Assembly: GCA_026988015.1 (NCBI GenBank)
Contig: JALSMA010000074.1
Location: forward strand, 1 to 34,533
Length of the DNA: 34,533 bases
Source: Desulfobulbaceae bacterium
GTDB lineage: Bacteria; Desulfobacterota; Desulfobulbia; Desulfobulbales; Desulfocapsaceae
Reading direction: 5' to 3'
Positions 3,605 to 14,201 of this stretch are shown here, piece after piece. Positions within the stretch are counted from its first letter, which is position 1; every line of letters starts with the position of its first letter. Below the pieces are notes generated by a model that was not told the DNA's origin, ran no database searches, and was given only the letters and a program-made list of their open reading frames with translations. The translations under genes and the position numbers were made by a program.

Positions 3605-6600
3605 ATGAAATTCATCCAAATGTTCAAACGAATTGGAGTCAAATTAATCACCGCATTTCTGCTCATAGGTCTTCTACCATTACTTATCAGCAGCTACATC
3701 TCTTCTATGAAAACCTCTGCTGCGCTTACCAATGCAAGTTTTAACCAGCTTTCCGGAGTCAGAGAAATAAAAACAGGCCAGATAAATAGTTTCTTCAAGG
3801 AACGTCGTTCAGACATGCAGATCCTGCTCGAGACTGTAGAGACTTTGAGAAGTGAAGCATTTGCAAAACTTGAGGCACAGCATGATCTGAAAACTGAAAT
3901 GCTGACAGAGTACTTTCAGCAGGCGATCTTAAGTCTTGAAATTATCACCCGCAGTAAAGATGCCACCTCACTTCATGACAGCCTGCTCATGTACCACAGG
4001 AGTAATAATGTTGCCGATAACGAACCCTACAACACAAGCTCAGAAAACTATAAACAGATATGGGAAAATTACGGCGAGCATATCACCCAGTTCCAGAAGG
4101 CCACAGGATACTATGACATCTTCATGATCTGCGGAGAACATGGTCATGTTATGTACAGTGCAACTAAAGAATCAGACCTTGGAACCAACCTGTCCGCAGG
4201 CCCTTTTAAAGACTCGGGCCTGGCTGATATCTGGAAAAAAACGGTTTCCACCAAAACAACATCCATTGTAGATTTCAAGCCATATGCCCCAAGTAATAAT
4301 GAACCCGCTGCCTTCATAGGAATTCCCATGCTTAACAGGGGAGAAGTGCAGGGTGTTATGGTGGTTCAGCTTTCACTTGATCATATTAATAAAGTTATGT
4401 CCGTCAGATCAGGGCTTGGCAAGACAGGAGAAACATACCTGGTCGGTCCTGACAAGCTGATGCGCTCCGATTCATTTCTTGATCCGGTAAATCATTCTGT
4501 AAAAGAATCCTTTGTCAATCCAGAAAAGGGGAAAGTGGACACAGAAGCTGTTCGTTGGGCTTTTGCTGGTGAAGACCGTTCTGATGTTATCCTGGGTTAC
4601 AATAACAACCCTGTCCTGTCAGTAGCTGCCCCATTCAAGATACTTGACCTTACCTGGGCAATAGTCGCGGAAATCGATATTGCCGAGGCGTTCAGCCCCG
4701 TTGATAACAAGGGCAATGAATTCTACAAAAAATACGTTACATCCAACGGATACCACGATCTTTTTCTCTTCAATCCTGATGGATACTGCTTTTATACAGC
4801 GGCCAAGGAATCAGATTATCAAACAAACTTCATAAACGGTAAATACAAAGACTCCAACCTGGGGGAACTCCTCAGAAAAACCATAGCTGAAAAATCGTAT
4901 GGAATCTCTGATTTTGCACCATATGCACCGAATAACGATGATCCTGCTGCATTTATCGCACAGCCGGTTGTTCATGGCGGTGAAGTTGAAATGGTAATCG
5001 CCCTGCAACTTTCCCTCGAAGCCATCAACGGGATCATGCAGCAACGTGAAGGTATGGGGGAATCAGGTGAATCGTATCTCGTAGGTTCCGACAAACTCAT
5101 GCGTTCTGATGCCATCGAGGGTGCATTTCACACCGTTGTTGAATCTTTCAAAAATCCAGAGAAAGGATCTGTAAACTCTGTTGCCTGTATCGAGGCCCTG
5201 AAAGGTAATTCCGGCACTATTCTCAGCAAGGACTTCAATAACCATTCTGTTCTCACAGCATACTCTCCACTGGACATAGACGGCCTACACTGGGCGCTCA
5301 TCACAAAGATAGATGAGTCGGAGGCCATGGCACCCGTTAAGGCAATGCAACGACTTACTGCACTGATAGTCGGTGTTAGCAGTATCCTCATTATAGTTGT
5401 GGCCATCTTTATGCTGCGTATGGTCATGGCACCCATCAAAGTGGTGGTTGGTAATCTCAGAGAACTGGCACAAGGCGAGGGAGATCTTACTCAACGCTTG
5501 CCGGTGGACTGTCCGATATGCTCTGATGTCACAAACTGTAACCAGTCAAATTGTCCTAGTTATGGTAAAAACGGCCTTTGCTGGGAAGAAACTGGAACCA
5601 TGGGAGATAATCCAATCTGTGTTGAGGTTGTGAATGGCAAAATAAAAGACTGCGTAGACTGCCCTGTCTATAAACAGGCAAACTACGATGAACTGCAGCA
5701 ACTCTCAACCAACTTCAACAGTTTCATCCTGAAACTTCAATATATGTTTAAGGAGGTGGTTCAGGGCGTGGTTACCATCTCTTCTGCCACAACTGAACTC
5801 TCGGCCATTGCAGAACAGATGTCCGGTGCCTCAGACAACGTCTCCAGCCAGTCAAATTCAGTGGCAACTGCCGCTGAAGAGATGAGTGTTAATATGGACT
5901 CTGTTGCAGCTGCCACCGAGCAGACAACAACCAATATGAATATCGTCGCCTCTGCTGCTGAAGAGATGACAGCAACCATTGCAGATGTCAACAGTAACAC
6001 TGAACGCGCAAGCAAGGTCACAGGTGAAGCCGTTCAGGAAGCTAAAAGTGCCACCACCAAAGTTCAACAACTAGGTCTTGCTGCCAGTGAGATCAGCAAA
6101 GTTACAGAGGTTATCACTGATATCTCAGGACAGACCAACCTTCTTGCCTTAAATGCAACCATTGAGGCTGCGCGGGCAGGAGAAGCGGGTAAAGGTTTTG
6201 CTGTTGTTGCAAACGAGATTAAAGAGCTGGCCAAACAGACCGCTGATGCAACAGGACAGATCAAGAACCAGATTGAAGATATCCAAAACTCCACCGCTGA
6301 CACGGTCACCCAGATTGAACGTATCACCGAAGTTATCAACAATGTAAATGAAACGGTGAATACCATCACAGGGGCCGTAAGTGAACAGACTGCGGCCACA
6401 GATGAGATCGCCAACAATGTGGCCTAGGCAGCACAGGGACTCAGCGAGGTAAATGAAAACGTAGCCCAGAGTTCTGCTGTATCTGGTCAGATTGCAGAAG
6501 ATATCACTACCGTCAGCCAGGCAGCAACAGAAATGTCGGCATCAAGTGGTGAAGTGCAGAGCAGTGCGGCTGAGCTCTCTGAAACAGCCGAGAAGCTCAA

Positions 6601-6628
6601 AGATATGGTCAGCGGCTTTAAACTCTAG
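3605..6628 (+). pseudogene. methyl-accepting chemotaxis protein with in-frame TAG at codon 941
   Basis: Membrane chemoreceptor that would signal to CheA/CheW. Layout: TM1 at residues about 12-32; two homologous periplasmic sensor units (about 110-365 and 370-578, each with FKPYAP or FAPYAP, then ETYLVG or ESYLVG and KLMRSD); TM2 about 583-608; HAMP from 609, interrupted after LTQRLPVD by an insert with eight cysteines (636-686) and resuming at [12 protein letters not shown] signalling domain follows, with the conserved tip around residues 845-877 ([20 protein letters not shown]). The reading frame stops at TAG 6425-6427, but the same frame continues for 66 codons (AAQGLSEVNENVAQ...) to TAG 6626-6628. 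This matches the normal methylation-helix end of the family. The stop replaces an expected Gln (CAG to TAG). A good ribosome site (GAGGAGA) precedes the ATG. Truncated, the receptor would lack the C-terminal half of the CD2 helix and probably signal poorly. Confidence 0.85.
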
Positions 6629-12357: not shown

Positions 12358-13380
12358 TCAGCAACTGCTGAATGCTGTTTCAACTGCGTCCTCTCCATGA
12401 AGTACAGCCAGAAGTTCTTCCCTGTTAACAGTGGCAGTTCCAATTTTTCCCACCACCACCCCAGCTGCAATATTTGCAAACGCAGCTGCATCGGCAAAAG
12501 AACCATGAGCTGCAAGTCCCAAGGCCAAAGCCGCAATAACTGTATCGCCGGCACCTGTCACATCAAAGACGGCTTTGGCAGTCGTGGGGATAGACACCAG
12601 CTCCCTACCCTTTTCTAGGAGTGCCATTCCCGATTCACCACGGGTGATAAGAACCGCCTCACAGCCGGTCCTGGATAGCAGGATTCCAGCAGCTTCTTTA
12701 AGATCCTCAACCGTATCAATGCCCACCCCGGACATCTTTTCAGCCTCCATTTGATTAGGAGTAATGAGTGACGCCCCGAAAAAACGCTCCGGTTGATTTG
12801 GTTTTGGATCAACCACAACTGGTATCTTGCGGCCACTTTCCACCTCTACCCGGGCCACCTGCTGAAGAAGCTGATCCATCAGTCTTTTCCCGATGACCCC
12901 TTTGTAATAATCAGAAATAATAACTGCATCAAAATCTGACATATTCTGATCAAAAAAGGAGATCATCGCAGCAACAGTTGTCTCTGAGGGGGAACTTGTT
13001 TGCTCTCTGTCAAAACGCACCACCTGCTGTCCCTGGGCCACAACCCTTGTTTTCACAGTGGTTGGTCGTTTCCCCTTCACAAGACCTGCCGTGGAAGCAC
13101 CAAGCTCGCCCAGTAGCCCTTGAAGCCTCTGCCCCATCTCATCATCACCGATTATGCCGCATAATACCGCCTCACCACCCAGAGAGTATATATTGTGCAA
13201 AACATTTGCTCCGCCACCAAGCAGATACTCCTCTTCGGTGACATTCACCACAGGAACAGGTGCTTCAGGAGATATTCTATTTACGGATCCCCATATAAAA
13301 TGGTCAACAATGATATCGCCAACCACCAGTATTTTCTTGCCACCAATCCGCTGGACCAGTTTTTCCAATTCAAAATTCAT
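12358..13380 (-). CDS. rfaE1: D-glycero-beta-D-manno-heptose-7-phosphate kinase (RfaE domain I)
   Basis: PfkB/ribokinase-family kinase that makes heptose 1,7-bisphosphate for the LPS inner core. Visible: ISPEAPVPVVNV and GGGANVLHNIYSLGG at the N-terminus, VVDPKPNQPERFFGASLITPNQMEAEKM in the middle, and the anion-hole/catalytic motif FDVTGAGDTVIAALAL near residue 280. The 340 residues cover only the kinase domain; the adenylyltransferase part found fused in E. coli HldE is not in this window. The ATG at 13380 was chosen because it overlaps the upstream stop as ATGA; the open frame continues 6 codons further. This is the only LPS gene in an operon otherwise of RNA and nucleotide functions. Confidence 0.92.
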   Translation of the reverse strand: MNFELEKLVQRIGGKKILVVGDIIVDHFIWGSVNRISPEAPVPVVNVTEEEYLLGGGANVLHNIYSLGGEAVLCGIIGDDEMGQRLQGLLGELGASTAGLVKGKRPTTVKTRVVAQGQQVVRFDREQTSSPSETTVAAMISFFDQNMSDFDAVIISDYYKGVIGKRLMDQLLQQVARVEVESGRKIPVVVDPKPNQPERFFGASLITPNQMEAEKMSGVGIDTVEDLKEAAGILLSRTGCEAVLITRGESGMALLEKGRELVSIPTTAKAVFDVTGAGDTVIAALALGLAAHGSFADAAAFANIAAGVVVGKIGTATVNREELLAVLHGEDAVETAFSSC

Positions 13381-14201
13381 GTTATCATCCCAACCCAACG
13401 CTCAGCCATTCGCTCACAGACAAAAACCAATGACTCAATATCCAGAAAATCATTTACATCCTTATCAAACAGGATTTTAACTTTAGCAGGAAACCCGTCC
13501 TCTTTCTCCTCGTCCCAGAAAAGTACAAAAAGAGGCAGCCGGGGCAGGGCAGGAAGCAAAAATGCGGCACTACAGATCTGCTCCGGATTATCCTGCACAA
13601 CAGCTCCCAGTTCCAGTGCTGAGTCTATCAGCAACCCAGTCTTCCCTGTAAAATAAGAGGCAATCCGTTCCTCACAGTATACCCGCAGAGTCCTCACTTT
13701 GGATATTGAGTTGGGAAGGGATTCCATCCCAATCCAATCCTGCTGTGGTACTCTTCCACCACCAAAATGGACATAGTTATAGAGGAGGATCTGATCACGC
13801 GGATCTTCCACCTCTTCGCCATTGATGAGAATACCATCATGGGACAGTTCAACATCCGTTCCCAAAAACTGAAAAAGAAGACTGTCTTTTTCTGGTCCTG
13901 ACCAGTGGCAACCAATGGCTTCCGCTGCCTCACCAAAATCTATATTACTCGTCTTCTTCTTCAGATAGGCCACCAGGGCAAGATCTTTTTCATCAAGGAG
14001 TTTCCCGACCCCTTCCAGACCATCAGAGCCACGATCTTCACTGGCAAATTCATCCCCGAGTTGTGAGACATCAACATAGGGACATTTTTCCGGCCCCTCA
14101 CCTCCCTTTGTAACAGCTGCAGCAAATGCAAGGCAAGCTGCATAGCCACATTCGCCACAATTTGTCCGAGGGGTATACTTGATAAATTCCAATGGTTGCA
14201 T
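13377..14201 (-). CDS. [4Fe-4S] domain plus DUF3786 protein
   Basis: Cytoplasmic iron-sulfur protein of unknown function. Residues 1-45 hold Cys15, Cys18, Cys23 and Cys40 in TNCGECGYAACLAFA...KCPYV. This is the cluster-binding pattern of the large subunit of the corrinoid iron-sulfur protein (AcsC/CdhE). Residues about 80-265 match DUF3786 (GILINGEEVEDPRDQILLYNYVHFGGG, SYFTGKTGLLIDSALELGAVV). This fusion is frequent in sulfate reducers and other anaerobes with corrinoid or acetyl-CoA metabolism. No corrinoid or Wood-Ljungdahl gene is nearby. It is the first gene of the coupled operon leading to rlmB, and its start lies only 9 nt after the T-tract of the skp terminator, leaving almost no room for a separate promoter. 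Confidence 0.85.
   Translation of the reverse strand: MQPLEFIKYTPRTNCGECGYAACLAFAAAVTKGGEGPEKCPYVDVSQLGDEFASEDRGSDGLEGVGKLLDEKDLALVAYLKKKTSNIDFGEAAEAIGCHWSGPEKDSLLFQFLGTDVELSHDGILINGEEVEDPRDQILLYNYVHFGGGRVPQQDWIGMESLPNSISKVRTLRVYCEERIASYFTGKTGLLIDSALELGAVVQDNPEQICSAAFLLPALPRLPLFVLFWDEEKEDGFPAKVKILFDKDVNDFLDIESLVFVCERMAERWVGMIT

Follow-up and report, generated by a model that had tools for sequence, protein, structure and literature searches.

The HAMP domain of a dCache chemoreceptor from a Desulfobulbaceae bacterium, a relative of sulfate reducers, is interrupted by a cysteine-rich insert, confirming an observation of the initial annotation. The receptor lies on contig JALSMA010000074.1 (assembly GCA_026988015.1), whose 34,533 nt, read on the forward strand, were analysed as a whole and are called the window here. 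There is about an even chance that this insert is a divergent two-CW-like metal-site module that would modulate the output of the HAMP.

The chemoreceptor ORF (3605–6427, forward strand; 940 aa) started with ATG and ended with TAG. It comprised a membrane segment, a dCache region, a second membrane segment, the split HAMP and a signalling domain, both membrane segments being assigned by eye. With the frame read through the TAG, the Pfam scores were 82 bits for dCache_1, 114.9 bits for MCPsignal and 20.9 bits for HAMP; the MCP signalling domain (PF00015, 118.3 bits) was placed at 5996–6481 of the forward strand, with the one TAG inside it. The sensor (3605–5400) seemed by eye to consist of two similar dCache units in tandem, and Pfam gave two dCache_1 stretches. 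Upstream of the receptor, 95–2795 encoded a kinase-receiver hybrid and, after it, a sigma-54 activator. The genes adjoining the receptor, a kinase/regulator pair and a LysR gene, had no evident link to it. A DUF3786 protein with a putative Fe-S cluster domain at its N-terminus was encoded at 13377–14201.

The split HAMP domain and its insert

The first HAMP helix, AS1, and the bulk of the connector were found at 5408–5506 (Pfam HAMP positions 1–31), and helix AS2, restarting at DELQQL, at 5687–5740 (positions 35–52, a match obtained with a 111-residue segment starting at 5441), both on the forward strand. Between them lay the cysteine module (5507–5686, forward strand), whose 60 codons (residues 635 to 694) encoded eight cysteines. 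When the insert was removed, the flanks gave a single HAMP match (PF00672) covering positions 1–52 of 53 at 35.6 bits, both helices and the connector matching together as one domain; the HAMP of the intact protein scored 20.9 bits, a partial match below the Pfam cut-off of 25. Thus the window receptor has AS1, connector and AS2 like other HAMP domains, but differs from them by a 60-residue module at the connector end. Among seven receptors from which the insert was removed, three scored above the HAMP cut-off of 25 and four scored 15.7–24.4 bits. The empty site was visible in four insert-less receptors of related bacteria (L007, L010, L012 and L017), and the HAMP of L010 scored 51.2 bits. L007 read LTVRLPVTSGDEIGEL at this site, as against LTQRLPVD, the insert and then DELQQL in the window receptor; the L007 sequence across the empty site was also given as RLPVTSGDEIGEL.

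An AlphaFold2 model of the monomer, made with 54 sequences and starting at 5405, had a mean pLDDT of 87.2 (92–95 in the module), and its long helices stood solely at the places expected for AS1 (helix 2–22) and AS2 (helix 96–122). For a kinase-type relative, the model showed a similar run of helices at a mean pLDDT of 84.5, falling to 67–70 over residues 61–80. By VIA-align, 64 residues of the receptor model, both ends included, were aligned with residues 200–263 of a WalK model, presumably the region that holds the WalK HAMP, in a weak match (1.9 Å, Z 5.2) from a comparison of these two chains only. This alignment is weakly consistent with an intact HAMP from which the module is looped out. 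Foldseek with the receptor model gave no solved fold at E up to 10, and solved relatives were found neither with the module sequence alone (E up to 10) nor with the kinase-type profile (E up to 1). The 14 distinct solved sequences matched by the 54-row profile at E 0.063 or worse were dismissed as relatives; five of them were HAMP hybrids covering profile positions up to 34 only.

The initial annotation had placed eight cysteines between the two HAMP helices, and both the number and the site were borne out by these alignments. It had also named the absence of a predicted fold as evidence that would count against its reading, and the fold predicted for the module was a confident one.

Cysteine framework and kinship to the two-CW domain

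The eight cysteines of the insert (residues 636, 639, 645, 650, 659, 672, 683 and 686; codons from 5510 to 5662) accounted for 8 of the 11 in the whole 1007-residue frame read through the TAG, the others being residues 176, 395 and 528. In 54 aligned receptor modules, C639, C650, C659, C672, C683 and C686 were invariant, as were the tryptophan that follows C659 and Gly664, and C645 was kept in 52. These are the seven conserved cysteines (5519–5662, forward strand; C659 belongs to a CWE motif), and the eighth, Cys636 (5510–5512, forward strand), was present in 14 of the 54 rows. Seven cysteines were counted in 29 of the inserts, eight in 23 and ten in two, and histidine occurred in at most five of the 54 rows in any column. 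When receptor and kinase-type modules were pooled, a six-cysteine core fitted 86 of 88 rows, and 85 of these 86 had at least one additional cysteine between the CW and the final CxxC, most commonly 13 or 8 residues downstream of the CW cysteine.

The aligned rows, 54 of receptor type and 34 of kinase type, divided by hand, had been gathered with a cysteine-rich profile built from four rows, so that selection of the rows accounts for part of the cysteine conservation. The profile matched 95 loci, of which seven were excluded from the alignments (three window copies, two duplicates, one with N and one with a stop); with L126 excluded from the 34-row alignment, the aligned set consisted of the window and 87 loci. 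Both cysteine codons were used at all eight positions among 12 sequences, i.e. the window and 11 relatives, L041 being left out. The module is under purifying selection: between the window and L005, which like L006 resembled the window receptor by eye along its whole length, dN was 0.10 and dS a saturated 2.87 (the module dS against L006 and against L193 was not computable). The corresponding values were dN 0.12 and dS 2.30 in the 100 codons upstream of the module, and dN 0.05 and dS 1.28 in the 240 codons downstream. The mixed codon use, the low dN of the module and the conservation among relatives speak against a chance cluster of cysteines. In the same-genus locus L040 (G098:C29:42793-42999), the CW tryptophan codon of the module was replaced by a TGA and the upstream frame looked broken; it is probably a decaying gene.

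The NCBIfam two-CW model (NF045718, cut-off 35) matched the C-terminal part of the window module at 17.8 bits and the whole protein at 13.4 bits. Matches at E up to 1 were obtained for 14 of the 54 receptor-type rows (best E 0.00025) and for 31 of the 34 kinase-type rows, the first of which scored 36.8 bits, above the cut-off. By hhalign, the receptor modules were linked to the kinase-type modules at E 2.5e-17 and these to 29 canonical two-CW domains at E 8.2e-20; a direct comparison of the receptor modules with the canonical domains gave E 2.3e-4 and a probability of 44. These figures are E-values of pairs, not of a database search, and the receptor and kinase-type sets had been fetched with one profile.

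The cysteine framework C-x5-C ... C ... CW ... C ... C-x2-C is common to the window module and the two-CW domain. The window module differs in having one CW instead of two (a criterion taken from the name of the domain), the first cysteine being followed by S and not W, as in most rows shown. Its stretch from the second to the fourth conserved cysteine is also shorter, and the cysteine after the CW is 13 residues downstream as against about 8. Because profiles link the module to the two-CW domain by way of the kinase-type modules, yet 17.8 bits falls below 35, we class the module as remote kin of the two-CW domain, divergent and more compact, which does not qualify for membership under the NCBI criterion. 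A NuoG match to the module, at 9.4 bits far below its cut-off, was disregarded. No paper on the two-CW domain was found in the open-licence literature.

Occurrence in other receptors and genomes

Ten matches to the MCP signalling domain were found in the window's genome, and the module was present in two and absent from eight of these chemoreceptors. In the second receptor (L002), the insert recurred at an identical position of the HAMP, behind a different N-terminal region. A protein of 136 aa in this genome (L003) had a two-CW-like domain (31.8 bits, below the cut-off), which by eye sat behind a helix-turn-helix-like region.

Of 257 genomes in the class, 131 had a match to the module profile (E up to 0.01). 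A profile of HAMP plus module matched, at E up to 1e-4, in at least 138 of the 257 class genomes and in at least 93 of a sample of 395 from the phylum; it found no match in at least five genomes of the same genus. Two of the five genomes that had been named through loci matched. Some matches cover only part of the profile, and therefore an insert within a HAMP is not established for every matched genome. In the phylum of G636, a Chromobacterium, matches with E up to 1e-4 came from at least 4 of 398 genomes, each of them in a short frame. For these last three counts (138, 93 and 4 genomes) only the best 10–16 candidates were scored in most genomes, so that they are possibly too low. Loci L227–L230 were stand-alone frames of 73–87 codons with a similar cysteine framework, although stop codons lay within two of the matches; the sequences of these short frames suggest that the module can fold alone.

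Other receptors, and some kinases, carried the insert at this position of the HAMP as well. The MCP tip motif was found downstream of the module in 46 of the 54 receptor-type rows; in the other eight the pattern was unmatched, though most of the tails looked MCP-like by eye. Among the 34 kinase-type rows, 23 matched a loose kinase H-box pattern, six GGDEF and five neither, so MCP, kinase and GGDEF are all among the outputs that follow such modules. Since a HAMP was recognised by Pfam (E up to 1) in only 13 of these 34 rows, the module is not bound to HAMP domains. By eye, seven of the kinase-type loci (L108, L112, L114, L117, L128, L141 and L142) had the module in a HAMP- or coiled-coil-like linker with no membrane segment immediately upstream of it, and in five receptors (L095, L097, L098, L099 and L103) another HAMP-like stretch seemed to come immediately after the HAMP that carries the module. 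Pfam CheW matched one of the 34 kinase-type rows, taken to be L148 (G246:C158), where a two-CW-like module occurs in an apparently CheW-like protein. On a tree of MCP domains, 59 with and 19 without the module, six changes of module state were needed, three of them forced by well-supported branches; six rows had been dropped (five long branches and one window copy) and sampling was uneven. Therefore a single gain without loss does not explain the tree.

The initial annotation had compared the cysteine spacing to CW-type motifs and had left it to homologues to tell whether the insert and its cysteines recur. The insert proved not to be peculiar to the window receptor, seven of its eight cysteines are conserved in the aligned receptor modules, and the CW comparison holds as a remote relationship to the two-CW domain. 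The earlier interpretation is thus supported in part: the site between the helices, the discrete conserved module and the CW likeness stand. Cys636 is the one cysteine of the eight that is not generally conserved.

Possible function of the module

Judging from sequence, it is highly probable that the module binds a metal, most likely Zn or Fe-S, because it has six to seven conserved cysteines and no conserved histidine and is cytoplasmic. The zinc-sensing CZB domain of McpA, described in PMC13370339 as having a 3His-1Cys site, would be similar as a metal or redox input to a chemoreceptor, but the module, having no conserved histidine, lacks the 3His-1Cys motif; it has six to seven conserved cysteines and lies inside the HAMP. 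FixT, according to PMC7078487, is an Fe-S-binding receiver protein with a four-cysteine motif, its Fe-S being shown in vitro. It is likewise a two-component signalling protein with a cysteine cluster; the window module differs in lying inside a HAMP and in having six to seven conserved cysteines.

Situated at the connector end, just before AS2, the six to seven cysteines would form a Zn or Fe-S site in the reducing cytoplasm. Loading, loss or oxidation of this site could shift the register of AS2 and alter the way in which the connector packs against the HAMP helices, which would bias the output towards kinase-on or kinase-off. The receptor would in this way integrate two inputs, one periplasmic through dCache and one from metal or redox conditions in the cytoplasm, and the arrangement shared by many related receptors may be one by which the cell interior adjusts the receptor. 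This full switch mechanism could as readily prove right as wrong.

A purely structural site also fits the sequence data: a permanently bound Zn could staple or stiffen the HAMP connector or the dimer and sense nothing. The near-absolute cysteine conservation and the compact, high-confidence fold agree with such a zinc knuckle, which requires no change of state, and constant cysteine conservation would be equally expected from it. We regard it as rather unlikely, since most HAMPs work without the module, as in eight of the ten chemoreceptors of this genome and in the four related receptors with an empty site. Because at least three changes of module state are forced on the MCP-domain tree and relatives of the module also occur outside recognisable HAMPs, it looks more like an added input than a scaffold. 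Small cysteine-rich folds often serve as protein-binding modules, and two-CW relatives occur in very different proteins; the module might thus be a docking surface for a cytoplasmic partner, its metal site being only structural. This is improbable, as no partner was identified and the adjoining genes lack an evident link to the receptor. Most improbable is a thiol-disulfide switch without metal. The many cysteines of this cytoplasmic domain, two of them in a CxxC, would suit it, but six or seven conserved cysteines exceed the need of one disulfide, the total of cysteines in the insert is seven, eight or ten among the 54 rows, and the host's relatives are, going by their names, presumably anaerobes with a reducing cytoplasm.

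The receptor could also be a decaying gene whose module has no present function in the window's genome. The in-frame TAG at 6425–6427 (forward strand), absent from the initial annotation, would remove the last 67 residues; the frame beyond it was open to 6626, with the next TAG at 6626–6628. With PylS models, no pyrrolysine synthetase over the cut-off was found in this genome: the N-terminal model had no match and none of four matches to the C-terminal model, which in a control of 14 genomes responded in 13 and passed the cut-off in one, was over it. Read-through of the TAG as pyrrolysine was therefore rejected. The close relatives L005 and L006 were intact at this position, the remaining frame is open, the module is under purifying selection, and a base error is possible in a draft assembly, all of which tells against decay. 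Either the window receptor has lost its last 67 residues or the TAG is an error of the draft sequence, and decay is a serious but minority prospect. The interest of the module rests on its relatives and not on the window copy, and decay here would be compatible with any functional reading for them.

To return to a metal site tuning the HAMP, signalling by this domain is described as switching between conformational states in PMC3570549, PMC3699570 and PMC8199190, and how its helices and connector set the output is, according to the last of these, still debated. Among the titles and abstract openings of the open-licence literature, no cysteine module inside a HAMP was found described. More tentatively, the HAMP connector might be a place where two-CW-like metal modules insert throughout the phylum, making the HAMP a sensor and not a passive relay. 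If this is true, many receptors and kinases would read cytoplasmic redox or metal in the transmission domain and combine it with the outside signal. HAMP is among the commonest relay domains of bacterial signalling; a natural connector module repeated across a phylum would make the connector accessible to experiment and would give a clue to what the two-CW family of cysteine domains does.
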